DNA from: Marinobacter sp. F3R11
GTDB taxonomy: Bacteria > Pseudomonadota > Gammaproteobacteria > Pseudomonadales > Oleiphilaceae
Direction: 5' to 3'
Assembly (NCBI RefSeq): GCF_003318275.1
Contig: NZ_QOCH01000009.1
Span: 1-64,000, forward strand
DNA length: 64,000 bases
Below, piece after piece: positions 6,928 through 64,000 of this stretch. Numbering within the stretch: position 1 is the first letter of the stretch; every line of letters starts with the position of its first letter. The position numbers and the translations under genes were made by a program. The notes under the pieces are model-generated. The model had not been told where the DNA came from and did no database searches. It worked only from the letters and a program-made list of their open reading frames with translations.

Positions 6928-8703
6928 ATGAATAAATTCTGGCATCAGCTTGGTGAAAAACTGATCACCGCGTTCCCGCGTAGATTTTCCGGTGTTGATT
7001 CATTACCTCAACTAGCCGTCCTCGGCCTGTTATCGGGGCTGATTACCGGCGCGGTGATTCTGATTTTCCGCCTTGCCATAGAGTGGCCGCTGGAATACAT
7101 CCTGCCGGGCGAAGGGTCTGAAGCCTTTGAGAGTCTCGACATCCTTACCCGGGGGCTGCTGCCTCTGGCCGGGGCTCTGGGTCTCGGTCTGCTACTGCAT
7201 CGTCTGACAACCCACGACCGGAAAGTCGGAGTTGCTCACGTTATGGAGCGACTGAACTACCACCAGGGTTACATCACGATGAAAAGTGCTGTAATCCAGT
7301 TCATTGTTGGTGTCACAACCGTCGTTACAGGACAATCCGCCGGCCGCGAAGGGCCCGCAGTGCATCTGGGGGCTGCGTTTTCAAGCCTGATGGGCCAGTG
7401 GATGCGGCTCCCAAACAACAGCATCCGGACACTTGTAGCCTGCGGCTGTGCTGCGGCCATTTCCGCATCGTTCAACACGCCGATTTCCGGGGTTATTTTC
7501 GCCATGGAAGTGGTGATGATGGAATATACTATTGCAGGTTTCACGCCCATCATTCTTGCAGCTGTCAGCGCGGCTATCGTAACCCAGGCTGTATACGGAT
7601 CTGAGCCCGCGTTCAGCGTCCCTGCTCTGACCATGAACTCACTGCTGGAAATACCCTGGATTCTGGTCATCGCCATCGTGATTGGAATTGCAGCGGCACT
7701 TTTCATTTACCTGGTCGACTCCATGGGGCGTTTCAATGACCGACCTGTTTTGCTGCGCGTTATCATTGCCGGTGTACTGATGGTCCCCGCCGCAGTTCTG
7801 GTGCCCGAAACCATGGGAATTGGTTACGATACGGTCAATGAAACCATAAACGGTGAGCTTGGCTTCTGGCTGCTGCTGAGTGCAGGGGCAGCCAAACTTG
7901 TGATCACAGCCCTGACTGTTGGATTAGGCATGCCAAGCAGCATTATCGGGCCAACACTGTTTATGGGAGCCACGCTTGGTGGGGCCATGGGGCTCATAGG
8001 TGCCGGGATCATACCTGGCCATGCCTCATCTGTTGGCTTTTACGCCATGCTCGGGATGGGCGCCATGATGGGTGCGGTACTGCAAGCCCCGCTGGCAGCG
8101 CTTATGGCGTTGATGGAACTAACCCGCAATCCGCATATCATTCTTCCTGGCATGCTTATTATTACGACTTCCACCCTCATCACGAGCGAGGCCTTTGGAC
8201 AGAAATCATTGTTCCTCACGGTGCTGAAAAGCCAGGGGTTGAGTTATCAAAGCTCGCCGGTTATCCAGGCATTGCGCCGGGTATCTGTGGCAGCGATCAT
8301 GGACAAGAGCATCCTGCGCATCGAAAGACATCTGACAACCGAAGAAGCCCGAAAAGCCTTGAAAGCCGAGCCCAAGTGGCTGGTGGTTGAAGGTAGCAAC
8401 GGTCCCACTGCCCTGCTACCCGCAGTTGATCTGGCTCGGTATCTGGAAGACCAGGGTGAGGTGACGGCAGGCAAGGATGAGGAACAGCCAAAATCCATTG
8501 ATCTGATGGAGATCCCGGCTAACCGCCGTGATATTGCACCGGTACAATATCAGGCCACTCTTGAAGAAGCGCTACAGGAATTCGAGACCACCAGTGCCGA
8601 AGCTCTGTATGTACAACGCCATGTGGCACCAATGATTCAACGGATTTATGGAATTGTGCTGAAATCCGATATCGAAAGCTATTACCAATACCGACGGAGC
8701 TGA
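6928..8703 (+). CDS. CLC-family chloride/proton antiporter with C-terminal cytoplasmic domain
   Basis: Inner-membrane chloride channel family protein. About ten hydrophobic segments occupy residues 25-440. The GREGPAV motif contains the gating glutamate (E141), the residue that makes bacterial members Cl-/H+ exchangers. The SFNTPISGVIFAMEV and MPSSIIGPTLFMG motifs are also present. The usual GSGIP selectivity loop is replaced by GVAHVM. About 150 C-terminal residues form a soluble region that may be a diverged CBS pair. I chose the ATG at 6928 (591 residues); a longer frame from TTG at 6847 adds an unlikely cysteine-rich leader. It ends 3 bp before hemJ. Confidence 0.9.
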   Translation: MNKFWHQLGEKLITAFPRRFSGVDSLPQLAVLGLLSGLITGAVILIFRLAIEWPLEYILPGEGSEAFESLDILTRGLLPLAGALGLGLLLHRLTTHDRKVGVAHVMERLNYHQGYITMKSAVIQFIVGVTTVVTGQSAGREGPAVHLGAAFSSLMGQWMRLPNNSIRTLVACGCAAAISASFNTPISGVIFAMEVVMMEYTIAGFTPIILAAVSAAIVTQAVYGSEPAFSVPALTMNSLLEIPWILVIAIVIGIAAALFIYLVDSMGRFNDRPVLLRVIIAGVLMVPAAVLVPETMGIGYDTVNETINGELGFWLLLSAGAAKLVITALTVGLGMPSSIIGPTLFMGATLGGAMGLIGAGIIPGHASSVGFYAMLGMGAMMGAVLQAPLAALMALMELTRNPHIILPGMLIITTSTLITSEAFGQKSLFLTVLKSQGLSYQSSPVIQALRRVSVAAIMDKSILRIERHLTTEEARKALKAEPKWLVVEGSNGPTALLPAVDLARYLEDQGEVTAGKDEEQPKSIDLMEIPANRRDIAPVQYQATLEEALQEFETTSAEALYVQRHVAPMIQRIYGIVLKSDIESYYQYRRS

Positions 8704-8706
8704 TCA

Positions 8707-9129
8707 ATGCTATGGGTTAAAGCCTTTCACATAATTTCTCTGGTGTGCTGGTTTGCGGGCATTTTTTACCTGCCCCGACTGTTTGTATACCATGCAGCCT
8801 GCGAAGATAAGCCCGGGCGCGAACGCTTCAAAATCATGGAGAGGAAACTCTACCGGGGCATTACCACTCCATCGATGATTGCCACTGTGATATTTGGCAC
8901 ATGGCTGCTCAGCTATAACGTTTCAGGCTATTTCAGTCAGGGCTGGCTACATGCAAAGCTGGTCCTGGTGGCTCTACTGATCATTTATCACTTTTATTGC
9001 GGCCATCTGGTCAAGGTGTTTCGCGACGATCTGAACACCCGCAGCCATGTCTTCTATCGCTGGTTCAATGAACTACCTGTATTCGTTCTGCTGGCCGTTG
9101 TTATCCTCGCTGTCGTTAAACCTTTTTAG
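8707..9129 (+). CDS. hemJ: Protoporphyrinogen IX oxidase HemJ
   Basis: Integral membrane enzyme oxidising protoporphyrinogen IX to protoporphyrin IX, the step before iron insertion in heme synthesis. The 140-residue protein has four hydrophobic helices and the family signatures WVKAFHIISLVCWFAGIFYLPRLFVYH, here described in part as the FHII...CWFAG block with an early conserved histidine, and the RWFNELP segment near the C-terminus. It sits in one run with thiD, thiE and hemL, so two heme genes bracket two thiamine genes. Its stop codon lies in the same reading frame as thiD, 12 bp upstream of the inferred thiD start. Confidence 0.9.
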   Translation: MLWVKAFHIISLVCWFAGIFYLPRLFVYHAACEDKPGRERFKIMERKLYRGITTPSMIATVIFGTWLLSYNVSGYFSQGWLHAKLVLVALLIIYHFYCGHLVKVFRDDLNTRSHVFYRWFNELPVFVLLAVVILAVVKPF

Positions 9130-15015: not shown

Positions 15016-16593
15016 GTGAGTGAAACATCCCCAGGCAAACTGTTACTGGCACTGCAGAACCCCGAACTGTACAACCATCCGGTTGACGGATTCCAGGTTA
15101 TAGAAACTCACATTTCTCAGGTAATTCTGACCGGTCAATATGCCTATAAAATCAAAAAACCCATGGATTTCGGGTTCCTTGACTTCTCCACTCTGGAGCG
15201 CCGCAGGCACTTCTGCGAAGAAGAACTGCGCCTGAACCGGCGCCTGGCAGAACCGCTTTACCTGGAGGTGCTCCCCATAACCGGCACCCCGGAGCAACCG
15301 GTCATCGGCGGCGAAGGAGAACCGTTTGAATACGCACTGAAAATGCGCCAGTTCCGTCAGGACCAACTCTTTGATCACCTGCAGGAAACCGGCACCCTGA
15401 AGCCGGAACTTCTATCCAGCCTCGCACGGCAGGTAGCAGCTTTCCACGACAGCCTGGAGCCGGTAGCAGACGACAAACCGCTGGGCACGCCCGAAGCCGT
15501 GTATGCTGCCATGCAGGAGAACTTCGACCAGATACGGCCGATGCTCGGCGACGAGGAACTACTGGACCAGCTCGATAACCTTGAAGCCTGGACACAAACT
15601 ACCTTTGAGCGCCAACGGGAATTGATCGCCAAACGCCGTGCAGATGGTCTGGTTCGGGAATGCCATGGTGACCTGCACCTGGCAAACATCACGGTTTACG
15701 ATGGCAAGGTCACAATTTTCGACTGCATCGAATTCAACGAGCCCTTCCGCTGGATCGACGTCATTAACGATCTGGCATTTCTGTTAATGGATCTGGAATC
15801 CCGAGGGGAACCAGCTCTGGCAAACCTGGTTCTGAACACCTACCTGGAATACCGCGATGATTTCGAAGCCCTGCCCTTGCTGCCGCTCTACAAGGCCTAC
15901 CGGGCTTTGGTGCGAGCCAAGGTTGTGCTTTTCACTCTGGCCAACCCATCCCTGAGCGAAGACGAAAAAACGGCTCTCATGCAGCGATATCGCGATTATG
16001 CCCAGTTAGCCGAAAATTACAGCAACATCCCGAATCCTTATCTGCTCGCTACAGTGGGACTGTCTGCCAGTGGCAAAACCTGCGTAAGCGCCGCCCTTTC
16101 CCGCGAGCTTGGCCTCATCCGCCTGCGCTCTGACGTTGAACGTAAACGTCTGCATGGCCTGGCGCCGCTGGAAGATAGCCGCTCACCTGCCGGGGGAAAC
16201 CTGTACTCCGCCGAAGCCAATGAAAAAACCTATGAGCGTCTCGCAAAACTTGCGGGTGAACTGCTCGCTTCAGGCTTTCCGGTAATTGTCGATGCGGCCT
16301 GTCTGAAAGAGCGAGAGCGCACAATGCTTACCTCTGTCGCTGAAAACCTGGGAACGCCCTTTGCCCTGATTCACTGCGAAGCGCCAGAAGAACTGCGAAA
16401 AGAGTGGGTACGCAACCGCAAAGGCGATGCCTCGGAAGCAACTGTGGAATTGCTGGACATCCAGAAAGACTGGTTCGAGCCCCTGACAGACAATGAGAAC
16501 AGCTACACCGTTCACCTGCACACAGATCAGGAACATGTTGCAGAAGCTGTTGCAGACAGAATCCGGCAGCACTTCGGCCTGCCTACAAGATAA
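15016..16593 (+). CDS. Fused aminoglycoside-phosphotransferase-like / P-loop kinase protein
   Basis: Two-domain cytoplasmic protein of 525 residues. The N-terminal half (about 1-320) has the APH kinase fold with the catalytic loop CHGDLHLANI and the metal-binding FDCIEFN. The C-terminal part (about 330-525) is a P-loop kinase with Walker A GLSASGKT near residue 350. Such fusions (COG2187/COG0645) are common in gammaproteobacteria but their substrate is unknown, and resistance to aminoglycosides should not be assumed. It starts at GTG 15016 after an AGGGAAGCGAGGAG-like leader and is divergent from mrcB. Confidence 0.85.
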   Translation: MSETSPGKLLLALQNPELYNHPVDGFQVIETHISQVILTGQYAYKIKKPMDFGFLDFSTLERRRHFCEEELRLNRRLAEPLYLEVLPITGTPEQPVIGGEGEPFEYALKMRQFRQDQLFDHLQETGTLKPELLSSLARQVAAFHDSLEPVADDKPLGTPEAVYAAMQENFDQIRPMLGDEELLDQLDNLEAWTQTTFERQRELIAKRRADGLVRECHGDLHLANITVYDGKVTIFDCIEFNEPFRWIDVINDLAFLLMDLESRGEPALANLVLNTYLEYRDDFEALPLLPLYKAYRALVRAKVVLFTLANPSLSEDEKTALMQRYRDYAQLAENYSNIPNPYLLATVGLSASGKTCVSAALSRELGLIRLRSDVERKRLHGLAPLEDSRSPAGGNLYSAEANEKTYERLAKLAGELLASGFPVIVDAACLKERERTMLTSVAENLGTPFALIHCEAPEELRKEWVRNRKGDASEATVELLDIQKDWFEPLTDNENSYTVHLHTDQEHVAEAVADRIRQHFGLPTR

Positions 16594-16642
16594 ACGGGCG
16601 ATATGCCTGAAAAACCGGAACAGAACATCATAAGGATCGATC

Positions 16643-16999
16643 ATGGAAACCGATGCCGTTCGACATATCAAAGACCCGCTCTATGAAACAGTCCGCAAGG
16701 AAGACATCGCTGCATTCAACGCGCAAAAATCAACGCGAACCGACCTCCCCAGCTTTGCCCATGGAGACTTCAGAGGGCTGGATCTAAGAGGACTGGACGC
16801 TCACGGGCTGGACCTGAGCCACGCTTATTTTCGGGGCGCGGATCTCAGGGGTATAGATTTCAGCCATGCAATTATGGAAGGTGCCAGCATTGCCGGCGCG
16901 AAGATTTCCGGATGTTTCTTCCCGGGCAGGCTAAAGGCCGATGAGATCGTTATGTCCCTGAACCACGGCACACGAATGCGATACAGCGCAGACATATGA
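16643..16999 (+). CDS. Pentapeptide-repeat protein
   Basis: A 118-residue protein whose middle (about residues 38-92) is made of A(D/N)LXX-type pentapeptides such as FRGLDLRGLD, LDLSHAYFRG and ADLRGIDFSH, which fold as a right-handed quadrilateral helix. About ten or eleven repeats are visible, too few for a gyrase-mimic of the Qnr type. Function is unknown. Its stop overlaps the start of the Rieske gene (ATGA), so both are likely one transcript. Confidence 0.85.
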   Translation: METDAVRHIKDPLYETVRKEDIAAFNAQKSTRTDLPSFAHGDFRGLDLRGLDAHGLDLSHAYFRGADLRGIDFSHAIMEGASIAGAKISGCFFPGRLKADEIVMSLNHGTRMRYSADI

Positions 17000-17382
17000 C
17001 AGGCAGACAAACCAGCCAGTGGCAGCCGGTCTGTAACAGGACATCCTTGCTGGCAGGCCAGTTCATTGAGTTTTCACTGGCTGGCGCCGGATCCGGCGTA
17101 ACGAAGAGTGCTGACACTCTGCCACAGAGGGGGTTTGTGTTTCTGGATGGCACCACCCCCAGGGCCTACCTGAATCAGTGCCCTCACACAGGCATTGAAC
17201 TGAACTGGATGCCGGGCCGGTTTATGGACACGGACAACCTGTTCATTCAGTGCTCAACGCACGGAGCTCTGTTCAAACCCGGAGACGGTGAGTGCATCGC
17301 AGGACCCTGTCAGGGTGATGCTCTCACCACGCTGGACGTACGGGAAAACGGAGAGATGCTGGAAGTCAGACTTCCAGAATAA
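16996..17382 (+). CDS. Rieske [2Fe-2S] protein
   Basis: Small soluble Rieske domain protein of 128 residues. The cluster ligands are C62-P-H64 and C86-S-T-H89, giving the CxH...CxxH pattern of Rieske ferredoxins. There is no membrane anchor or signal. Similar small Rieske proteins are often electron-transfer components without a known partner, and no oxygenase is nearby. It overlaps the upstream pentapeptide gene by 4 bp, and its 3' end overlaps the convergent sfsA by 17 bp. Confidence 0.88.
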
Positions 17383-18097
17383 CCGGCACGGCCTCAACAA
17401 GCTCCATTTCGCCGGATGGACTGCCGTCTTCGTTAGCCAGGTTTGCACGATAAGCTATAACCTCAACCCCCGCATCACACGCTTGCCGCAATAACTGGCC
17501 GTATTGCGGGTCAATATGATCCGCAGGCCGGACAGTTTCGATCCCGGTATGGTTCACCACGAAAAACAACACCGCACGATCACCGTGCGCAACCTGAGCC
17601 ATCAGTTCTCGTATATGTTTCTGTCCACGGGTTGTCACCGCATCCGGAAAGAAGCCCTGGCCGTTTTCCTCAAGTGTCACATTCTTCACTTCCACCCAGG
17701 CATCCGGCTCTGTCTCATGTCCGGAAAGTAACAGATCGATCCGGCTTTTTTCCTCGCCGTACTTCACTTCCGGGCGACAATGACTGTACCCGGTCAATTC
17801 GCGGATACGGCCAGCCTCAATTGCCTCTCGGGCCTGCGCGTTCGGTCTGGCCGTATTTATACAGGCGAGTGTCCCGGGCGCCGTTTCAACAAGTTCCCAT
17901 GTATAGGGCAACTTACGCGCCGGGTTATCGCTGCGACTCAGCCACACCCTCGCGTTGGGTGGCTGACATCCCAGCATAGAGCCGGTATTCGGGCAATGGG
18001 CCGTTACTTCAGTGCCGTCGGGCAACCGGACATCCGCCAGAAAGCGTTTATAACGCCGGATAAGACGCCCTTCAATCAGGGGCTGAGGGAACTTCAT
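17366..18097 (-). CDS. sfsA: Sugar fermentation stimulation protein SfsA (DNA-binding, nuclease-like fold)
   Basis: The 243-residue protein matches SfsA throughout, including the N-terminal [10 protein letters not shown] and NTGSM, the central WVEVKNVTL with the nuclease-like E-x-K, and RGQKHIREL. SfsA was described as a regulator of maltose metabolism in E. coli and also has a restriction-nuclease-like core; its true role is unsettled. It is divergent from dksA, preserving the sfsA-dksA-gluQRS-pcnB order known from enterobacteria. Confidence 0.93.
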
Positions 18098-54061: not shown

Positions 54062-54709
<648 letters not shown>

Positions 54710-54885
54710 TCAACAACTCCTGAACTGGATCTGGCCACCATCACTGAAGGCCCGGAAAACCGGAAATTATACGGGCTTTGACCAAACACCGCATCCCGGA
54801 TGCCTCGACAACTGGTAACATTGGGCTGGCGACTGGAAACGCCGCAATATCACACCCAAGCACAGTAAAATGACGGAAAGGTAGC

Positions 54886-55773
54886 ATGGATAAATTTCTG
54901 ATTGTCATGGACCCGGCCCAAAAGCACCAAAAAGCTCTCGCCCGGGGAATCGAACTGGCGCGCGCCACCGGCGCTCACCTGGAAGTCGTGGCCTTCACCC
55001 ATGAACACCTCGGGGCACTGCCTTCAGCCCCCACCGTACAGCAGCAGGCGCGAGACGCCATGGTCGAGCTTCGCCAACGCTGGCTGGACCAGATGCTGGC
55101 ACTTTCAGATTGCAGCGACCTGACCATCACTACCCATACGGTTTGGGAAAAACACATCCATCAGTGGATCATCGAACACTGTCACCCCAACCGCTTCAGC
55201 GCCGTAATCAAAACCGGCCAACGTTCAGAGACACTGCTTTATACACCAACCGACTGGCATCTTATCCGGGAATGCCCGGTACCCGTCATGCTGGTTGCAG
55301 AGCAAAAGTGGAACCATGCCCACCCGATTCTTGCAGCTGTGGATCTGAGCTCCGGCAAGCCGGTCAAAAAGGCACTCAATACGAAAATCATCAAGCAGGC
55401 CAATGCCCTGGCAAAAGCGCTCGGGGTAGAAGTCCACCTGGTTCACGCGCTGCATATTTCTGAAATACTGGCAGATCTTGAAATTATCAATGTGGCTGAA
55501 CACGAGAAGAAACGTAAAGAAGCGCTTGAGCCAGCAATCACCCACCTGTGTAACACCTGGCACCTGCGCCGCGATCAGATCCACCTGGCTGCTGGCCCGG
55601 CACACAAGGTAATCCCCAGCGTTGCCAGCAAACTGAAAGCCGATATGGTAGTGATTGGCACCAGTGGCAAAACCGGCCTCCGGGCGAGAGTCATCGGCAA
55701 CACAGCAGAAAAAGTGCTCACCCACCTGAGAACCGACCTGCTTGCTATCAAGCCGGGAGAGGCTGGAGAGTAA
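54886..55773 (+). CDS. Tandem universal stress protein (UspA family)
   Basis: A 295-residue protein with two Usp domains (about 1-145 and 148-293). The second ends in the ATP-binding pattern VVIGTSGKTGLRARVIGNTAEKVL (the G-2x-G-9x-G(S/T) pattern, here with GN before TAEK). The first domain lacks a clear version of this motif and is probably structural. It resembles UspE-like proteins. It overlaps the RluA-type gene at the stop codon by 1 bp and is divergent from gmk. Confidence 0.92.
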   Translation: MDKFLIVMDPAQKHQKALARGIELARATGAHLEVVAFTHEHLGALPSAPTVQQQARDAMVELRQRWLDQMLALSDCSDLTITTHTVWEKHIHQWIIEHCHPNRFSAVIKTGQRSETLLYTPTDWHLIRECPVPVMLVAEQKWNHAHPILAAVDLSSGKPVKKALNTKIIKQANALAKALGVEVHLVHALHISEILADLEIINVAEHEKKRKEALEPAITHLCNTWHLRRDQIHLAAGPAHKVIPSVASKLKADMVVIGTSGKTGLRARVIGNTAEKVLTHLRTDLLAIKPGEAGE

Positions 55774-56591
55774 TGCGGAGAAAATTCGACGTTACGACCA
55801 GGCAGCCTGAAAGCGCTGCTGATGCCTTGTGCCAGGCATCAGGGCTTTCACGCCAACGCATCAAAGACGCCATGAACAAAGGCGCGTGCTGGTGGACACT
55901 TAAAGGCAAACTTGTACGTCTGCGACGTGCAACCAAAGAGGTCAAGGCGGGTACGCGACTACAACTGTACTATGACGAAAACGTACTGGACCGAAAGCCT
56001 GAACCGGCAACCCTGATAACGGACAAAACCCGGTACAGTGTATGGTACAAACCCCACGGCATGCTGGCACAGGGCTCACAGTGGGGTGATCACTGCAGCC
56101 TGTTACGCTGGGCCGAGCTTGAACTCAAGCGCCCATGCTATCTGATCCACAGGCTGGATGCCGACGCAGCAGGGCTGATGCTCATCGCCCACGACTCGAA
56201 AGCCGCCGGCGCGCTCTCCCAGTGCTTTTCCGGGCGCACCATGACCAAGCAGTACCTGGCCAGAGTAACAGGCATTATTTGTATCCAGGACCAGCTGATC
56301 GACATGCCGGTTGACGGCAAAGTCGCCATTAGCAGGGCCACTACCCTGACCACAGATGAGCCCAGTCAGACCAGCCTCTTGCAAGTAGCCATTGAAACCG
56401 GGCGAAAACACCAGATCCGCAAGCACTTGCAGAGCATCGGGCATCCGATTGTCGGGGATCGCCTTTACGGCAGGCCCGCCAAAGCCTCCCTGCAACTTCT
56501 GGCCCTCAGCCTCGAATTCGACTGCCCCCTGAGCCGGCAGAGAGTAAAGCTGGAACTACCGGAGCCTCTGAACAGACTGAGCCCAGTCTGA
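55773..56591 (+). CDS. RluA-family pseudouridine synthase
   Basis: RNA-modifying enzyme of 272 residues. An N-terminal S4-like RNA-binding region (about 10-75) precedes the catalytic domain with the signature HRLDADAAG (126-134, catalytic D129) and the C-terminal GRKHQIRKHLQSIGHPIVGD region (cited in part). The rRNA or tRNA target cannot be told from sequence. It overlaps the Usp gene by 1 bp. It is the last core-type gene before the restriction locus. Confidence 0.92.
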   Translation: MRRKFDVTTRQPESAADALCQASGLSRQRIKDAMNKGACWWTLKGKLVRLRRATKEVKAGTRLQLYYDENVLDRKPEPATLITDKTRYSVWYKPHGMLAQGSQWGDHCSLLRWAELELKRPCYLIHRLDADAAGLMLIAHDSKAAGALSQCFSGRTMTKQYLARVTGIICIQDQLIDMPVDGKVAISRATTLTTDEPSQTSLLQVAIETGRKHQIRKHLQSIGHPIVGDRLYGRPAKASLQLLALSLEFDCPLSRQRVKLELPEPLNRLSPV

Positions 56592-56789: not shown

Positions 56790-59105
56790 ATGTCGTCAGA
56801 AGCAGATACAAGAGCAAACTACATAGACCCAGCATTAAAAGCCGCACATTGGCAACCGAATAATATTATTCGGGAATATTACTTTACCGATGGCCGTAAG
56901 CTTGCTGGCGGTGTCCGTGGTCGTCGCTGTTTTGTCGATTATCTGCTCCACAAAGACAATCGTTACCTCGCTGTGGTTGAGGCGAAAAAAGAGTCCGAGC
57001 ACCCAACCAAAGGCCTTCAACAAGCCATAGACTATGCCAAGAAGTTGCTCGTTCGTTTTGTCTATTCAAGTAACGGCAAACAAACCTATGAGTTCGACTT
57101 AGAAACTGGTAAAGGCGACTACATCGAGTTTTACCCAACACCACAAGAGCTTGAAAACCGCTATATGGGTGTTAATTCGGATCTAGGTCAGCAACTTCGT
57201 AATGTGCCCTTTCATTTAGAAGGCGCAATGCAGCCGCGTTATTACCAAGAATTAGCGGTCCATGCCGCCACAGATGCCATTGGTAAAGGTAAGCCACGAG
57301 TGCTATTAACGCTGGCGACTGGTACAGGTAAAACGTTTATTGCCTTTCAAATCGTCCATAAACTGTTTCAGTCCCGTTGGAATAAAGAATCTCCGGGTAC
57401 ACGTAGGCCTAGAATTTTGTTTTTAGCCGATCGCAATATTTTGGCCGATCAAGCCATTAACACTTTCAATCCATACGAAAAAGACCTCATCAAAATAAAC
57501 GGTGAGGAGGTTCGCAAGCGTGGCGGTGTTGTGCCAACCAATGCGCATATCTTTTTTGCTATCTACCAGGCCATTGCTGAGCGTGAAAACATTGAAGGCT
57601 ATTACAAAGCGTACCCAAGTGATTTTTTTGACCTAGTCATGATTGACGAGTGTCACCGTGGCAGTGCCAATGAGACAGGCTCATGGCGAGCCATTCTTGA
57701 TCATTTTGGCAGTGCGGTGCATGTTGGCCTAACAGCTACACCAAAACGAGAAGCTAACGTGGATACCTACGACTACTTTGGTACACCCGCTTTTGAATAC
57801 TCATTAAAAGATGGCATCAACGATGGTTTCTTAACACCATATCGTGTCAAACGGGTGCGTACCAACTTAGACGAACTGGTGCTAACTAAAGATGACCAAG
57901 TGGTTGAAGGTGAATCAGGGCAAGACGTCTATCAGGTAGAAGATTACGACAAAAAAATCGTCGTAGATGAACGTACCGAACTGGTCGCAAAAGCCATTTT
58001 GGACAATATCAATCCATTAGAAAAAACCATCGTCTTTTGCGAAAACCAAAATCATGCACTGACCATGCGTGACATGATCAATAAACACAAAGAGCTGAAA
58101 GATCCCCATTACTGTGTACGTGTAACCAGTGACGAAGGTAAAGTTGGCCGCGAGCTACTGGAAAAATTCCAAGATAATGACAAAGACATCCCCACCATCA
58201 TTACCTCATCGCAAATGTTAACCACGGGTGTAGATGCCCGTAATGTGCGTAACGTAGTGCTGGACAGAACTGTCGGCTCAATGGTGGAGTTTAAACAAAT
58301 TGTCGGTCGCGGAACCCGTGTGTTTGATGGCAAAGACTATTTCACCATTGTTGATTTTCGCGGTGCCACTAACAAGTTTTACGACAAAGATTGGGATGGC
58401 GAACCTGAAGCGCCAGAGCCAGGTGGCACTGGGGAGCCAACACCACCACCTTACACACCAGAGCCACCCGAAGGAACAGATGGCCCAGAGCCTGAACCGG
58501 GTGAGCCAAAACCTCGGTTGAAAGTAAAGCTAGGCAAACACCGTGAACTGAAGGTCATTGACGTTGAAACTCGTTATATCGATGAAAACGGCAAACCTCT
58601 CACGGTGCAAGAATTTGTTGAGCGCTTGATCACCCAATTACCAGGGTTGTTTAAATCGGTTGAGGAATTGCGTCAGATTTGGTCAGACCCAGACGAGCGC
58701 GAAACCTTGCTCGGTAAACTCGTACAAGCAGGCTTTGATAAAGAGCAACTCGCCACACTACGACGCATGTTTGAAGCAGAAGAGTGCGATATCTTCGATC
58801 TGCTGGCTTTTTTAGCCTTTGAACAGCCAATGGCAACCCGCAAAGCTCGTGCCGATCAAGTACGTACTAACAGCGCCTTCTTTAATCAGTACCAACAAGA
58901 AAAGGCACAGCAGTTTTTGCACTTTGTGCTTAACCGGTATGAGCAAACCGGCAGCACCGAGCTATCGCGCGAGCGCTTGCCAGCACTTATCGAGCTATCA
59001 GGGTTGGGTACTGTCAAAGACGCCTCAACAGCATTCGGTGGAAAACCAGCCTATTTGCTGGCGGCTTTTAAACAATTACAACAACAGCTATATCACGTGA
59101 ATTGA
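56790..59105 (+). CDS. hsdR: Type I restriction endonuclease subunit HsdR (EcoAI-like)
   Basis: DNA-translocating and cleaving subunit of a type I restriction system. The 771-residue protein has the N-terminal PD-(D/E)xK nuclease with D50 and E64-x-K66 (VVEAKK), then the SF2 helicase with Walker A ATGTGKT (176-182), DECH (286-289), TATP (315-318) and the arginine-finger motif VGRGTR. A proline/glutamate-rich linker of about 40 residues (about 530-575, EPTPPPYTPEPPEG) joins the C-terminal HsdM-contact domain. Length and motifs fit the family IB (EcoAI) R subunit. All motifs are intact. One bp separates it from the ATPase gene. Confidence 0.95.
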   Translation: MSSEADTRANYIDPALKAAHWQPNNIIREYYFTDGRKLAGGVRGRRCFVDYLLHKDNRYLAVVEAKKESEHPTKGLQQAIDYAKKLLVRFVYSSNGKQTYEFDLETGKGDYIEFYPTPQELENRYMGVNSDLGQQLRNVPFHLEGAMQPRYYQELAVHAATDAIGKGKPRVLLTLATGTGKTFIAFQIVHKLFQSRWNKESPGTRRPRILFLADRNILADQAINTFNPYEKDLIKINGEEVRKRGGVVPTNAHIFFAIYQAIAERENIEGYYKAYPSDFFDLVMIDECHRGSANETGSWRAILDHFGSAVHVGLTATPKREANVDTYDYFGTPAFEYSLKDGINDGFLTPYRVKRVRTNLDELVLTKDDQVVEGESGQDVYQVEDYDKKIVVDERTELVAKAILDNINPLEKTIVFCENQNHALTMRDMINKHKELKDPHYCVRVTSDEGKVGRELLEKFQDNDKDIPTIITSSQMLTTGVDARNVRNVVLDRTVGSMVEFKQIVGRGTRVFDGKDYFTIVDFRGATNKFYDKDWDGEPEAPEPGGTGEPTPPPYTPEPPEGTDGPEPEPGEPKPRLKVKLGKHRELKVIDVETRYIDENGKPLTVQEFVERLITQLPGLFKSVEELRQIWSDPDERETLLGKLVQAGFDKEQLATLRRMFEAEECDIFDLLAFLAFEQPMATRKARADQVRTNSAFFNQYQQEKAQQFLHFVLNRYEQTGSTELSRERLPALIELSGLGTVKDASTAFGGKPAYLLAAFKQLQQQLYHVN

Positions 59106-59106
59106 A

Positions 59107-60879
59107 ATGGAATTAACACTTGCACCTAACCCGTTGCACGACCAGCCACAAACCTTAAACATCAATAAGGTTGCTACTTTAATTGGTGAAAATGGCAGCG
59201 GCAAATCCAGCATCTTACATTCCATCTTTAGAAAGCAGATTGAAGAACCTAGTGAAACGCTTCAGCTGATCTGTGCTACTTCAGGGCAAAATGAAAACTT
59301 CTCTTCCTTTTTTGAACGAAGACTAACCTCTTTACGATCAAGGAAAGATATAAGTGACATTGATTTTTCTAGCCTTTTCTTTACTCAGAAAGATGTTCGA
59401 TTCCTTACGTTTCTCGCCTACACATTCAAGAGTAACGGCTTAGTTTTTAATTTTGTTAACAACCACAAGGCATTCAAGGATCAAGTTTCAATTAAATTGA
59501 AACTGAAAATATCTGTTCCTGATACTTACATAAAGAATGTACAACAAGACCAGATAGCTGAAGCGAAAGACTATGAACACCCGTCGATAAGAAAAAGACC
59601 TTTTAATCAGCGACTTGACGCCTTTCTTGAAAAGATAGAAACACTTCCTGACCTTGATGCTCTGCTAGAAACAGGTAAAGGCCTAAAGTCAACCGAAGTA
59701 GAAGTAACTAATGAACAATTTTTTGATGTTTTTGATGGTTCTAGAGTTGATGCCACAAAATTTCTAATCGAAGGCTCATACAACGAATATTTCTTTTCAG
59801 CTTCTGAAATTTTGCTTTACCTAACTGATAATATTGAATTTTCATTGCTCAGTGATGGTGAGTATCAGTTCCTATTCGTTGCTTCACTAATTGATCTATT
59901 TGATGGCACTTCTTCCCTTTTCATGTTTGATGAAGTTGACTCACACCTGCACCATAAAAACGTTGAGTTCCTTTGGGACATCCTAAGCAAAACTAAGGGT
60001 AAGGTCATAACCACAACTCATTTAGTCGACTCAATCGCTGAGAATGACTTCGAATCATTGTTTTTGGTTGAAAATGGGCAGATAAAAAATGAGCAAAAGT
60101 CTCAAAAGTTATTGGAAAGATTGAAGATTTTATCCAAAAGTAAAGTCGTCGAGTTAGAAATAGCCTCCAAATTGAACAACATTTGCTTGATTGATTACTA
60201 CAACGATTGGAAGATTTTTGAGTTATTAGCAAAGCAGAAAGGGCTTGACTGGAGGCCTCTGTCCTCAATAAATCCTATAGCCAAATCATCTGGTTACAAT
60301 TCAGCGGGGGACAGCTTTGGTGCGTCCAAGATCAAGTGGCTGCATGAGTTGAGAGACATGAAGGAATATCTCAGAGTGTGCAAAGCTGAAGTTCACAAAA
60401 AAGATAAAGCTCTTCATCCACGCAAAATAACAAATATGTTCATGGTATGCGATCGAGACGAACTGCCAGAAGCTAACATTCACGCACAAAGCGGTGTCAA
60501 GGTAGTTGGAGTTGATTACCCTGACAAATTTGACTTAGGTTTGCCTTGTCCAGAGAGAATAAACTGCTACTTGCTGACTTGGAAACGCCGCGAAATCAAG
60601 AATTACTTGCTTTCACATACAGCACTGTCACATCACAACGTACTTGATACAATCAACAACCCTGATATTGCGCAGCGAAATCATTTACAACCAAATAACC
60701 CAGGTGATAACGACGATATTCGGCGTTTGAACGCAAAAGGTGTCATTAACACCCTGATCAATACCGAGGGTGTAGGGCAGGATAATGACAAGCTGCAAGC
60801 CTATATCGATCTGATCCCGCCAGACGAAATCAGCGAAGATATCACCAATATGTACAATTTTATTATCGGAAAACTATAA
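59107..60879 (+). CDS. ABC-type ATPase with TOPRIM/DUF4435-like C-terminus embedded in the hsd operon
   Basis: A 590-residue protein. The ATPase half has Walker A GENGSGKS (27-34), an ABC-signature-like LLSDGE (247-252), Walker B LFMFDE (271-276) and the H-loop TTTH (H305), the plan of AAA_15/AAA_21 and OLD-like ATPases. The C-terminal half (about 355-510) has a TOPRIM/DUF4435-like layout: LIDYYNDWKIFELL, the acidic CDRDE (D449, D451) and RREIKNYLL (E496). The usual first glutamate of TOPRIM is replaced, so nuclease activity is uncertain. It fits exactly between hsdR and hsdM (1 and 3 bp gaps) and is more AT-rich than both. The plan resembles the two PARIS proteins (AriA ATPase, AriB DUF4435) in one chain. 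Function is inferred only. Confidence 0.8.
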   Translation: MELTLAPNPLHDQPQTLNINKVATLIGENGSGKSSILHSIFRKQIEEPSETLQLICATSGQNENFSSFFERRLTSLRSRKDISDIDFSSLFFTQKDVRFLTFLAYTFKSNGLVFNFVNNHKAFKDQVSIKLKLKISVPDTYIKNVQQDQIAEAKDYEHPSIRKRPFNQRLDAFLEKIETLPDLDALLETGKGLKSTEVEVTNEQFFDVFDGSRVDATKFLIEGSYNEYFFSASEILLYLTDNIEFSLLSDGEYQFLFVASLIDLFDGTSSLFMFDEVDSHLHHKNVEFLWDILSKTKGKVITTTHLVDSIAENDFESLFLVENGQIKNEQKSQKLLERLKILSKSKVVELEIASKLNNICLIDYYNDWKIFELLAKQKGLDWRPLSSINPIAKSSGYNSAGDSFGASKIKWLHELRDMKEYLRVCKAEVHKKDKALHPRKITNMFMVCDRDELPEANIHAQSGVKVVGVDYPDKFDLGLPCPERINCYLLTWKRREIKNYLLSHTALSHHNVLDTINNPDIAQRNHLQPNNPGDNDDIRRLNAKGVINTLINTEGVGQDNDKLQAYIDLIPPDEISEDITNMYNFIIGKL

Positions 60880-60882
60880 GCC

Positions 60883-62361
60883 ATGTCATTACAACAAAAG
60901 ATTGACCGAATTACCGACATACTGCGCCGCGACGATGGCATTAGTGGTGCTATGCACTATACCGAGCAAACCTCGTGGGTGTTGTTCTTAAAGTTTTTGG
61001 ATGATTACGAGTCTGAAAAAGAAGATGAAGCTGTCCTGTCAGGTAAAGATTATCAACCGGTGTTGGATGAAGCGCACCGCTGGTCAAATTGGGCCTGCCC
61101 GAAAAACGCCGATGGCAAGCTAGATATCAACAAAGTTCGCACAGGCGATGACTTAACCGATTATGTGAATAACGAGTTATTCCCTTACTTAAAAGGCTTC
61201 GCCAATGCCGCCGTTACAGGTTCAGACCCTAAATCATTCGCCTATAAAATTGGTGCCATCTTCCAGTATTTAGACAACAAGGTAGCTTCTGGCCATACCT
61301 TGCGTGAAGTGCTGGATATTATCGACACGCTGAACTTCCAATCCAGTGATGAAATGTTTGAGCTCTCGCTAGTCTATGAAGGCTTATTGCAAAATATGGG
61401 CGATGCCGGAGGCTATGCGGGCGAGTTTTACACCCCGCGTCCCGTGGTACGCGCCATGATCAAGGCTATTAATCCACAAGCAGGGCAAACCATTTACGAT
61501 GCTGCTGCGGGCTCGTGTGGTTTCCTAGTTGAAACCTTTGACCACCTGAAAGCAAAAAAAAGAGAGCTTTCTACCGAACAGTGGGACTTTATCCAACGTG
61601 ACACCTTCTTTGGTTTTGAAAAAACCTCGCTGGCTTACGTTATGGGCATGATGAACATGATTCTGCATGGCATCGAGTCACCCAACTTGTTCCGTGGTAA
61701 TACGCTCACCCAGAATATCCGCGATATTCAGGAAAAAGACCGTTACGACATTATTCTGGCTAATCCGCCATTTGGTGGCAAAGAAAAGTCGCAAATTCAG
61801 CAAAACTTCCCTATCCAAAGTAACGCGACCGAATTACTGTTTTTACAGCACTTTATGAAAACCCTCAAAAGTGGCGGAAAAGCAGCCATCGTCGTGCCAG
61901 AAGGCGTGCTTTTCCAAACTAACAGCGCCTTTAAACAGGTAAAACAAGAGCTGCTGGAAAACTTTAACCTGCACACTATTTTAAGCCTACCTGCTGGGGT
62001 ATTTTTGCCGTATTCAGGGGTTAAAACCAACGTGCTGTTTTTTGAGCGCAGCGGCGGTACTAGCGATGTGTGGTACTACGAATGTGAGCCAGAGCAAAAA
62101 CTCACCAAAAACAAACCCATCACAGACGAACACCTAAAAGAGTTTGTTGAGCTGTATAACAGCCGAGAACCCACTGAGCGTTCGTGGACTGTATCGGCCA
62201 GCAAACTGGCTGAAGATTATGACCTATCCGCCAAAAACCCAGCCAAACAGAAAGATGCCGAGCATTTAGCGCCCAGCGATATCCTCAAGCTGATCCGCAC
62301 CAAAGAAAAGCTGGTATCAGGACTGTTGGATGAAATTGAAGACCTGTTGGCGGAGAAATAA
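60883..62361 (+). CDS. hsdM: Type I DNA methyltransferase subunit HsdM
   Basis: N6-adenine methyltransferase subunit that protects host DNA and forms the core of the restriction complex. The 492-residue protein has the N-terminal helical HsdM domain, EFYTPRPVVR (181-190), the AdoMet motif DAAAGSCGF (206-214) and the catalytic NPPF (294-297). Length matches EcoAI HsdM (about 490). It is 2 bp from hsdS. Confidence 0.97.
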   Translation: MSLQQKIDRITDILRRDDGISGAMHYTEQTSWVLFLKFLDDYESEKEDEAVLSGKDYQPVLDEAHRWSNWACPKNADGKLDINKVRTGDDLTDYVNNELFPYLKGFANAAVTGSDPKSFAYKIGAIFQYLDNKVASGHTLREVLDIIDTLNFQSSDEMFELSLVYEGLLQNMGDAGGYAGEFYTPRPVVRAMIKAINPQAGQTIYDAAAGSCGFLVETFDHLKAKKRELSTEQWDFIQRDTFFGFEKTSLAYVMGMMNMILHGIESPNLFRGNTLTQNIRDIQEKDRYDIILANPPFGGKEKSQIQQNFPIQSNATELLFLQHFMKTLKSGGKAAIVVPEGVLFQTNSAFKQVKQELLENFNLHTILSLPAGVFLPYSGVKTNVLFFERSGGTSDVWYYECEPEQKLTKNKPITDEHLKEFVELYNSREPTERSWTVSASKLAEDYDLSAKNPAKQKDAEHLAPSDILKLIRTKEKLVSGLLDEIEDLLAEK

Positions 62362-62363
62362 GC

Positions 62364-63575
62364 ATGGAACAGGTTTTATATTCATTGCCGGATGGGTGGG
62401 AGTGGCAAGAGTTAGCAGATGTCGTTGTTAAAACAGAAAACTTGAACCCGTTAAAACACGCAGATCAGCTGTGGACGTACATTGATATATCGTCAGTAGA
62501 TCGTGATCGATTTGCAGTTACAGATCCAAAGGAAATTCTAGGGAAAGATGCTCCATCAAGAGCGAAAAAGCATGTACAGCTAAACGACGTGATATTTGCG
62601 ACGACACGGCCAAACCTAAAAAACATAGCGTTGGTTCGGGATGAATATAGCTCACCAGTGGCATCTACAGGTTTCTGTGTTCTCAGAGCTAACAAAAAGG
62701 TTTTGCCTGCCTATTTGTTTTATTTTGTCACAACAGATTTTGTTCAAGCCCAAATTGAGCCCTATGTCGGTGGCGCTTCATATCCCGCGATTACTGATGG
62801 AAATCTTAAGAAGGCTCCAATACCGATACCAAGCATCGAAGAACAAAATCGTATCGTCGAAAAACTCGATGCACTGCTCACCCGCATCGACACCGCCATC
62901 GAGCATTTGCAGGAAAGCGTCACACTGGCTGATGCGCTATCAAAAAATGGGCTGTCAGAAATATTCGAGAGCCTAAAAGATCGTTATGAGGTCGTACCCC
63001 TATCATCTGTCGTAAAAATTAATAGTGGCATTGCGTTACCGAAACTTTTTAAAAACGGTTTCAGCGATGGTGACATTCCATTTTTCAAAGTAGCACAAAT
63101 GAACAACCATCATGAAAATATGGTTAAGCCAGAGATAACATTTAATGAAACAGTTGCCAAAGAACACAAAATAAAGCTATTTCCGAAGGGCAGCACGCTG
63201 ATTCCCAAAAGAGGTGGGGCAATCCTAACCAATAAAAAGAGAATGCTGCTTGAGGATGCGTCATATGACAGCAACATCATGGGATTAAAAGCTGACGAAT
63301 CTAAAATTTCCGACGAGTACCTTTTCGCCTTCATGCGGACAATAGATTTAGCAAATTTCGTCGATGCAAGTACGATCCCGCAAGTTAACAACAAACACAT
63401 AGATCAAATGCAAATCCCTCTGGCAAGTATCGAGGAACAGGCTGACGTGGTTAGCCGTGTAAACTTGTTGGTTAAAAAAGTCGAAACAATGAATTCTGAA
63501 ATTCAAAGACAACTGGATGATTTGCAAGCTTTGAAAAGTTCAATTCTCGATTCCGCCTTTAAAGGCGAGCTCTAA
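62364..63575 (+). CDS. hsdS: Type I specificity subunit HsdS
   Basis: Sets the DNA target of both methylation and restriction. The 403-residue protein has two target-recognition domains (about 1-155 and 210-360). Each is followed by a conserved helical spacer, first around PIPSIEEQNRIVEKLDALL and then around PLASIEEQADVVSRVNLLV, the internal symmetry that gives a bipartite target. No frameshift or inverted partner gene is visible, so it seems fixed rather than phase-variable. It ends in LKSSILDSAFKGEL, the common HsdS tail. Confidence 0.95.
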   Translation: MEQVLYSLPDGWEWQELADVVVKTENLNPLKHADQLWTYIDISSVDRDRFAVTDPKEILGKDAPSRAKKHVQLNDVIFATTRPNLKNIALVRDEYSSPVASTGFCVLRANKKVLPAYLFYFVTTDFVQAQIEPYVGGASYPAITDGNLKKAPIPIPSIEEQNRIVEKLDALLTRIDTAIEHLQESVTLADALSKNGLSEIFESLKDRYEVVPLSSVVKINSGIALPKLFKNGFSDGDIPFFKVAQMNNHHENMVKPEITFNETVAKEHKIKLFPKGSTLIPKRGGAILTNKKRMLLEDASYDSNIMGLKADESKISDEYLFAFMRTIDLANFVDASTIPQVNNKHIDQMQIPLASIEEQADVVSRVNLLVKKVETMNSEIQRQLDDLQALKSSILDSAFKGEL

Positions 63576-63584
63576 GGAGGGAAT

Positions 63585-64000
63585 ATGGCATTCGATACCA
63601 CAGTTTTTGAACAAAAAGAGTTCAGGGAAGCAATCAACAAATTCGAAGAGTTGCTCTCACACTCAAAAGCGGTTCTGTTAGGTGCAGGGGCGAGTTTTTG
63701 CGCTGGGCTTCCATTGACCAACCAGCTAACAGAAAGAGCACTAATAAGTGACAAGCTCTCCGACGATTCAAAGCAGATATTGACTGCCATACAAAATTCT
63801 TTTGCTGGCGCAAATCCAGCTTCGCATATAGAAGACTACTTAAGCGAACTCGTAGATTGGCTTGCTATCACTGCTCGCCGAACAAATCGCAATGTAACGG
63901 CTAGCAGCGTATTGATTGGAGGTACTGAATACAGCAACGATCAGCTATTGCAAGCAATAAAAGAGATAAAACTCGCTATTTTTGACGTCATTAATGTTGA
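63585..64000 (+). CDS. SIR2-like domain protein, 5' part only
   Basis: The first 138 codons of a gene cut by the window end. It starts at ATG 63585, 4 bp after a perfect AGGAGG, and 9 bp after hsdS, so it belongs to the same operon. Residues about 30-50 read VLLGAGASFCAGLPLTNQL, the GAGxS NAD-binding signature of SIR2-like NADases used in several anti-phage systems (for example ThsA, DSR). The remainder (HIEDYLSEL and so on) fits the SIR2_2 type. The effector or sensor domains downstream cannot be seen. Confidence 0.78.
   Translation, partial: MAFDTTVFEQKEFREAINKFEELLSHSKAVLLGAGASFCAGLPLTNQLTERALISDKLSDDSKQILTAIQNSFAGANPASHIEDYLSELVDWLAITARRTNRNVTASSVLIGGTEYSNDQLLQAIKEIKLAIFDVINV

Follow-up and report, generated by a model that had tools for sequence, protein, structure and literature searches.

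Background

The systems closest to the protein described here are PARIS, the OLD nucleases and the defence genes that lie inside restriction operons. According to the accessible parts of the papers concerned, the anti-restriction protein Ocr acts as the trigger of PARIS (PMC9122126), whose AriB is released and cleaves tRNAs (PMC9122126; PMC12409363). Among the OLD nucleases, class 1 stands alone, class 2 (GajA) is found with GajB, and class 3 with a reverse transcriptase, as set out in the available text of PMC10568477. OLD-ABC/TOPRIM modules in BREX and BREX-related operons have been proposed to be suicidal back-up effectors (PMC12839542, 2026), and the available sections of the same paper state that OLD-ABC-nuclease pairs had been reported earlier in RM-like systems. 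Inside type I loci, the accessible parts of the literature describe TgvAB, embedded in a type I operon of V. cholerae (PMC11411939), DarTG2, located between hsdS and hsdR (PMC12255303), and a pair formed by an RNA-binding protein and an AAA-like ATPase, found between hsdS and hsdR in four genomes (PMC11411939, PMC12255303, PMC9122126). Judging from the portions available, defence proteins of the ATPase-TOPRIM type have been described before, as have embedded defence genes (PMC10568477, PMC11411939, PMC12255303).

The ATPase gene and its operon

The window analysed here is a stretch of 64,000 nucleotides from Marinobacter sp. F3R11. Positions 59107-60879 of its forward strand are an open reading frame of 590 amino acids, encoding an ABC-type ATPase with a TOPRIM-like C-terminal half (hereafter the ATPase). 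The gene is an exchangeable cassette within a type I restriction-modification operon, whose hsdR, hsdM and hsdS all score above curated cut-offs. The hsdR gene (56790..59105, +) encodes an EcoAI/FtnUII-family type I restriction subunit of 771 aa and reaches 900.9 bits against NCBIfam NF046051 (cut-off 550). The type I methyltransferase gene hsdM (60883..62361, +; 492 aa) reaches 214.1 bits against PF02384 (cut-off 20.4), and hsdS (62364..63575, +), for a specificity subunit of 403 aa, reaches 90.4 bits against PF01420 (cut-off 22). hsdR ends at 59105 and hsdM begins at 60883, which leaves gaps of 1 bp and 3 bp on the two sides of the ATPase gene, in agreement with the preliminary description of this DNA; the lower G+C content reported there also holds, with 38.7% in the ATPase gene against 46.3% in hsdR and 46.2% in hsdM. 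The operon continues with a SIR2-like gene, of which the window holds the 5' part (63585..64000, +; 380 aa in total, ending at contig position 64727; PADLOC SIR2, 2.3e-66), and, beyond the window, with HerA (594 aa, contig 64711-66495; PADLOC HerA, 6.3e-139). These two are its last genes (7586-8728 and 8712-10496 in L006, corresponding to contig 63585-66495).

The operon sits between a USP-RluA gene pair, which adjoins gmk, and yicC. Seven relatives of the genus were scanned around gmk: yicC adjoins it directly in two, and in three its neighbour is a USP homologue. In one of these loci (L103) yicC comes about 2 kb after the USP-RluA pair, in another (L105) yicC lies about 3.6 kb past USP, and in L104 yicC was not found within the 7 kb read. 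Within the genus (window 54062-56591, L094-L100 and L103-L105) gmk and yicC are either direct neighbours or separated by USP-RluA or by several kb of other DNA. As this stretch differs among the relatives, the operon occupies a variable site. In two related loci, an HTH/IrrE-type regulator and a PIN-annotated gene were observed upstream of hsdR (L007 8126-9668; L009 8129-9671); the L007 copy of the regulator is a PADLOC RmrA match, and the window has RluA at that place.

Association with type I restriction loci

Eleven family members were compared: the window, L007-L012, L015/L016, L022, L023 and L024, the last of which is truncated by the end of its contig; L025 was taken as its N-terminal part. 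Six further sequences (L002-L005, L013 and L014) were left out because their match is confined to the ABC signature/Walker B stretch or covers less than that. The ATPase gene is followed directly by hsdM or by an hsdM-hsdS fusion in all eleven loci, and preceded directly by hsdR in ten, across two phyla, counts that are biased upward where ATPase-less hsd loci exist, because most of the loci were found via the ATPase itself. None of the eleven (0/11) was found away from hsd genes, so that the case of homologues mostly outside hsd loci, which would have spoken against the preliminary description, did not arise. In the remaining locus, L024, no hsdR was recognised upstream, where there is only a 404-aa ORF without a Pfam match. 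The L012 locus belongs to the Bacteroidota (Roseivirga), and that of L016 has an hsdR built differently, of 988 aa. A DNA search with hsdR-ATPase-hsdM is a fairer test of the linkage than the eleven-locus count, and all four plasmid records that match hsdR and hsdM carry an ATPase in the slot.

The family appears in few of the records searched. Homologues were found in 4 of 72,556 plasmid records, with no new plasmid when this search was repeated with the two most distant homologues, and a scan of genome contigs gave at least two full-length homologues. In genomes of the phylum a homologue was detected in 2 of 398, the window's own included, in those of another order in 4 of 394, one of them already known from another search, and when 369 genomes of the class were searched with a single sequence, five matches came back, of which only the window's own is full-length. 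These searches of genomes score only a few candidates in each and may overlook copies. Phage records, E. coli genomes and three scans of viral contigs yielded no homologue.

We also considered the ATPase as a general partner of EcoAI-type hsdR, and rejected this: among the 369 genomes, 30 EcoAI-type hsdR loci were read out of 45 matches, and it is absent from the other 29, of which one (L028) has under 1 kb after hsdR and one (L032) has none. Because the window's own locus is the only one of the 30 with the ATPase, the gene belongs to one lineage of EcoAI-type hsdR and not to the whole family. The HsdRs of the other loci are 33-49% identical to that of the window (best ORF). The ATPase is absent from G828, with an hsdR 45% identical, and in G756, with an hsdR 96% identical, the contig ends inside hsdR and the slot is not covered.

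The genes after hsdS are clearly variable among the ATPase loci. A Shewanella plasmid (L010) keeps SIR2 (96%), while of HerA it retains no more than the first 83 aa, soon followed by an annotated Tn3-family transposase, and V. campbellii (L008) has a 43-aa ORF resembling the start of SIR2. A 672-aa protein follows hsdS in five loci (L011 7575-9593, L007 16497-18515, L009 17876-19894, L022 13698-15716 and L023 4420-6438). Its copies are 82-88% identical to that of L011 and, from motifs judged by eye, have the look of a GHKL-type ATPase. At E 0.001 neither Pfam nor PADLOC recognises the L011 copy, and the protein is a candidate for an unnamed defence gene. On a V. fluvialis plasmid (L009), Shedu (SduA, 16500-17879) lies between hsdS and the 672-aa protein. 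The locus of L016 (1161-14094, G669) contains, in order, an hsdM-like gene, a GmrSD-like type IV gene, a second hsdM-like gene, a 391-aa ORF in the place of hsdS, hsdR, the ATPase and an hsdM-hsdS fusion.

Exchange of alleles and selection

Comparison of the window with four plasmid loci gives DNA identities of 89-92% for hsdR and 89-91% for hsdM, against 51-58% for the ATPase and 48-51% for hsdS. At the protein level HsdR and HsdM are 95-98% identical and the ATPase 38-51%. It is this depth of divergence that sets the ATPase and hsdS apart from the rest of the operon. Between the window and L010 identity falls at the start codon of the ATPase, and between the window and L007 or L008 it decays across about the first 60 codons; with all three, identity recovers about 28 codons before the stop. 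The corresponding conserved tail (60793..60876, +) has a protein identity of 96-100% to L007, L008, L009 and L010, and of 71% to L022. In the pairs among the window, L007 and L010, synonymous differences amount to 0.76-0.81 in the ATPase and 0.31-0.44 in hsdR and hsdM.

Breaks are also found within the gene. Between L007 and L009 the ATPases diverge by 35% as far as codon 274 (window residue 251) and by 9% in the remainder; between L007 and L022 the difference is 6% as far as codon 509 (window residue 501) and 39% beyond it. None of 300 shuffles reaches the break value of either pair. Another of the five pairs tested, L007-L023, has no break in the ATPase. Since hsdR and hsdM have breaks too, weaker than those of the ATPase, recombination is general in these operons. 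The ATPase gene has been replaced by divergent alleles, whole or in parts, within an otherwise near-identical operon. It acts as an exchangeable cassette like hsdS, and its variation follows neither hsdS nor the genes downstream. We rejected a coupling of the ATPase allele to hsdS, as the ATPases of L007 and L008 are 96% identical and their hsdS 29%; we also rejected a coupling to the downstream cargo, which is the 672-aa ATP-binding protein in L007 and a SIR2 remnant in L008.

Within the Vibrio-type allele group, dN/dS is 0.13-0.19 for the ATPase and 0.03-0.04 for hsdR and hsdM, over the four of six pairs that yielded a value for each of the three genes. The ATPase is thus under purifying selection in this group, and these values indicate a protein that is retained yet changing faster than its neighbours.

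The ATPase half

The N-terminal half is an ABC-type ATPase, with 44.9 bits against Pfam AAA_21 (cut-off 27). In every family member, wherever the part is aligned, the Walker A, signature, Walker B and H-loop residues are the same, which confirms the assignment made in the preliminary description from K33, D275/E276 and H305. Walker A spans residues 27-34 (59185..59208, +), with K33 in all ten members in which that part is aligned. The ABC signature LSDGE covers residues 248-252 (59848..59862, +; S249-E252 in 11/11), Walker B and the D-loop residues 271-282 (59917..59952, +; D275, E276 and D278 in 11/11), and the H-loop histidine H305 (60019..60021, +) is likewise present in all eleven. The most divergent part of this half is residues 61-249 (59287..59853, +), where pN is the highest of five regions (0.49 between the window and L007, 0.55 between the window and L010). 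It is a candidate sensor insert, a role suggested here for a divergent region. The best PADLOC matches of the protein are mad3 (5e-15), AbiLi and AriA, each of which aligns to the ATPase part.

The C-terminal half

The preliminary description saw a TOPRIM/DUF4435-like tail with an acidic core. The three acidic residues that it named, D449, D451 and E496, are conserved in all eleven members, and to these we add a pair that it had missed, D363 and D367 (60193..60207, +), also Asp in 11/11, at the site of the E-x-x-x-D of OLD-type TOPRIMs. All five (D363, D367, D449, D451, E496) are the same in every member, the window included. The TOPRIM-like core covers residues 359-501 (60181..60609, +). Within it, D449-R-D451 (60451..60459, +) is the presumed metal-binding motif, and the motif RREIKNYLL, residues 494-502 (60586..60612, +), resembles the RREIENYL of OLD/AriAB TOPRIMs.

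The TOPRIM-like half draws on a structural model, on its comparison with known structures by VIA-align and on profile alignment by hhalign, none of which is decisive alone. An AlphaFold2 model of residues 328-590, built from seven sequences, has a mean pLDDT of 73.5 and a pTM of 0.75, and we read its predicted strand-helix order as that of a TOPRIM; the whole-protein model is poorer (pLDDT 69.6, pTM 0.55). In VIA-align of the domain, eight of the ten best rows are retron Eco2, OLD or PARIS chains, from four distinct proteins, with Z of 6.1-7.0, a range under 8 and so not decisive: retron Eco2 (7.0, 6.6), whose tail we take to be a TOPRIM, BpOLD (6.6), XccOLD (6.4, 6.3, 6.3) and the PARIS chains 8ux9_A and 8v46_D (6.4 and 6.1, likewise under 8; 174 and 172 residues aligned, rmsd 4.8). 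These PARIS chains, of 305-306 residues, are probably AriB to judge from their length. PH0156 (6.9) and an Argonaute MID domain (6.3) fill the remaining two rows, and Argonaute MID domains score 6.3-5.7 in the same comparison. No non-TOPRIM fold for this half stood out. VIA-align of the whole-protein model picked up mainly the ATPase part. The best PDB match of Foldseek with the domain alone, XccOLD, has an E of 0.079, short of the 0.001 threshold, and the matches among viral models were weak too.

With hhalign, the eleven-member tail aligns to seven OLD/AriAB TOPRIMs over 203 columns with probability 91, score 50.6 and E 9.8e-7, an E-value that is optimistic because the seven were chosen by eye for TOPRIM motifs, after the RREIxNYL block had been seen in L057. 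Five of them were found with the PADLOC AriAB model and two are relatives of one of these; proteins found with that model and without clear TOPRIM motifs by eye were left out, L073 being placed in the PF20469 set. In controls, 40 column shuffles score at most 25.2, and five other proteins of the operon give noise (probability 0.54 at most). The match remains at E 1.7e-5 without the two members that have Glu at position 498, and the signal is gone (probability 0.83) once the RREIxNYL block is masked, so that the sequence match depends on this block. Against L057 alone, the tail gives 2e-5 in a single BLASTP comparison and 2.6e-5 with hhalign.

The DUF4435 match of the preliminary description is not borne out as worded. 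Pfam, at E up to 10, gave no match of any family in seven C-terminal domains, PF14491 (DUF4435) and PF20469 included, and hhalign gave noise against one DUF4435 protein (probability 0.31) and a probability of 0.16 against nine PF20469-type proteins. At the same threshold the PADLOC model for single-chain AriAB, PDLC02981 (E 0.0018), and PADLOC Csx19 (0.011) each matched one of the seven domains, in neither case that of the window, and sequence searches of the PDB gave no meaningful match. A TOPRIM-type domain of the OLD/AriAB kind with altered catalytic residues, rather than a Pfam DUF4435, is supported for the tail but not proven.

As to the altered residues, Asp (D363) stands at the place of the catalytic glutamate in 11/11 members: hhalign pairs it with the TOPRIM Glu of OLD/AriAB proteins (AriB itself is absent from the alignment) and aligns D367 with the Asp four residues after that Glu. 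Position 498, usually the Glu of I-E-N, is Lys (K498) in nine of the eleven and Glu in two (L022 and L012). Because of these two substitutions, the putative nuclease may be weak or dead; the accessible part of PMC12409363 reports that the E26A mutant of AriB is inactive. In L022 (9184-10980), the Lys/Glu difference at 498 adjoins the start of the exchanged C-terminal segment, so catalytic-looking residues may move by recombination.

Proposed function

Our main reading, to which we give a probability of about 0.5, is that the ATPase is a single-chain ABC ATPase-TOPRIM of the OLD/AriAB kind, a dedicated member of the type I operon that serves as a second-layer guard. The guard role is suggested by the anatomy of the protein and by analogy with PARIS. 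The ATPase half would sense that restriction is blocked or bypassed, for instance through a phage anti-restriction protein, and would then switch on the TOPRIM half, which might cut nucleic acid (tRNA or DNA) and stop the phage, perhaps by arresting the cell. The swapping of alleles could reflect a race with varied phage triggers. The preliminary description had proposed a fused PARIS-like or OLD-like guard; its ABC ATPase motifs, TOPRIM-like half and hsd linkage are retained here, the DUF4435 match is not, and the canonical catalytic Glu is Asp throughout.

Several other explanations have to be weighed against a dedicated guard. The ATPase gene could be an independent defence gene parked inside the hsd operon: its product, an OLD-type nuclease, would respond to a trigger of its own and share the transcript of the hsd genes without watching over them. 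Independent systems embedded in this way are published, as far as the available text of the papers goes (TgvAB, PMC11411939; DarTG2, PMC12255303), and the cargo after hsdS is indeed variable in these loci. The slot of the ATPase, however, is constant, with no member outside an hsd locus and all four plasmid hsd relatives at the DNA level carrying it; a parked gene would be expected to be absent from some copies, though few copies have been seen. We regard this explanation as rather unlikely. Alternatively, the protein might be an extra subunit of the restriction enzyme, in which a catalytically dead TOPRIM accompanies an ATPase that tunes restriction or modification. The Asp at 363 and the frequent Lys at 498 would fit such a subunit, as would the best PADLOC match to mad3, a component of a system whose mad2, mad5 and mad8 match hsdM, hsdS and HerA. 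But the invariance of D367, D449, D451 and E496 in all eleven members is unusual for a dead site, and alleles only 38-51% identical beside HsdR and HsdM at 95-98% are odd for a tightly fitted subunit, so that we think this unlikely.

The divergence of the alleles could in principle have arisen by relaxed drift inside the ATPase gene and not by cassette exchange, and the higher dN/dS of the ATPase than of its neighbours within the Vibrio-type group points in that direction. Drift would nevertheless need the ATPase to match hsdR and hsdM in synonymous divergence, which is far from what the three pairs among the window, L007 and L010 show (0.76-0.81 against 0.31-0.44), and identity changes abruptly both along the operon and within the ATPase gene; drift is accordingly highly improbable.

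Beyond the main reading of a second-layer guard, we tentatively suggest, as something possible but doubtful, that the ATPase is an obligatory guard of the type I enzyme whose trigger specificity is altered by the exchange of modules, in effect a swappable immune receptor. The modules would then be the N-terminal half (to about residue 251), the core, and the C-terminal segment from about residue 501, just past RREIKNYL, and the swappable guard might be the counterpart of the target-recognition domains of hsdS.

If the guard reading is true, some type I restriction enzymes have a built-in second line of defence with a sensor exchanged as a cassette. The natural sets with near-identical HsdR and HsdM and different guards (the window, Salinivibrio and Shewanella) would allow the phage products sensed by each allele to be sought directly. 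The family would also offer a test of whether TOPRIMs with Asp for the catalytic Glu still cut.

Comparison with known systems

Like the ATPase, the BREX back-up effectors are modules of the same kind inside an RM-like operon; their operons are BREX or BREX-related, and in the available parts of that paper we have not seen the hsdR-ATPase-hsdM order or the swapping described. Our literature search, mostly without subscription papers, likewise found no report of this arrangement or of allele exchange, which is not proof of absence. PrrC, TgvAB, DarTG2 and the pair of RNA-binding protein and AAA-like ATPase resemble the ATPase in forming a second defence layer, or a candidate for one, within hsd genes, as described in the accessible text (PMC11411939, PMC12255303, PMC9122126). 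They differ from it in belonging to other protein families or occupying another slot.

The operon as a whole resembles MADS (methylation-associated defence system), since PADLOC mad2, mad3, mad5 and mad8 match hsdM, the ATPase, hsdS and HerA, respectively. It differs in its low NCBIfam scores (89 against a cut-off of 720 bits for MAD2 and 66.6 against 400 for MAD5) and in the presence of hsdR and SIR2.

The OLD nucleases share with the ATPase a single chain in which an ABC ATPase is followed by a TOPRIM, here a probable one, and an RREIENYL-type motif is common to it and to OLD-like proteins such as L057. Unlike the OLD classes, the ATPase is located between hsdR and hsdM and has no PF20469 match. 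Class 1 is a stand-alone gene, in contrast to the ATPase with its hsd locus in 11/11 cases, and Gabija (class 2) needs the adjacent UvrD-like helicase GajB, whereas the neighbours of the ATPase are hsdR and hsdM. PARIS (AriA-AriB, including single-gene AriAB fusions) has in common with the ATPase an AAA_21-type ABC ATPase joined to a TOPRIM, again a probable one here, and a link to restriction; the ATPase departs from it in having no PF14491 match, in the change of the catalytic Glu to Asp and in the position of its gene inside the hsd operon.
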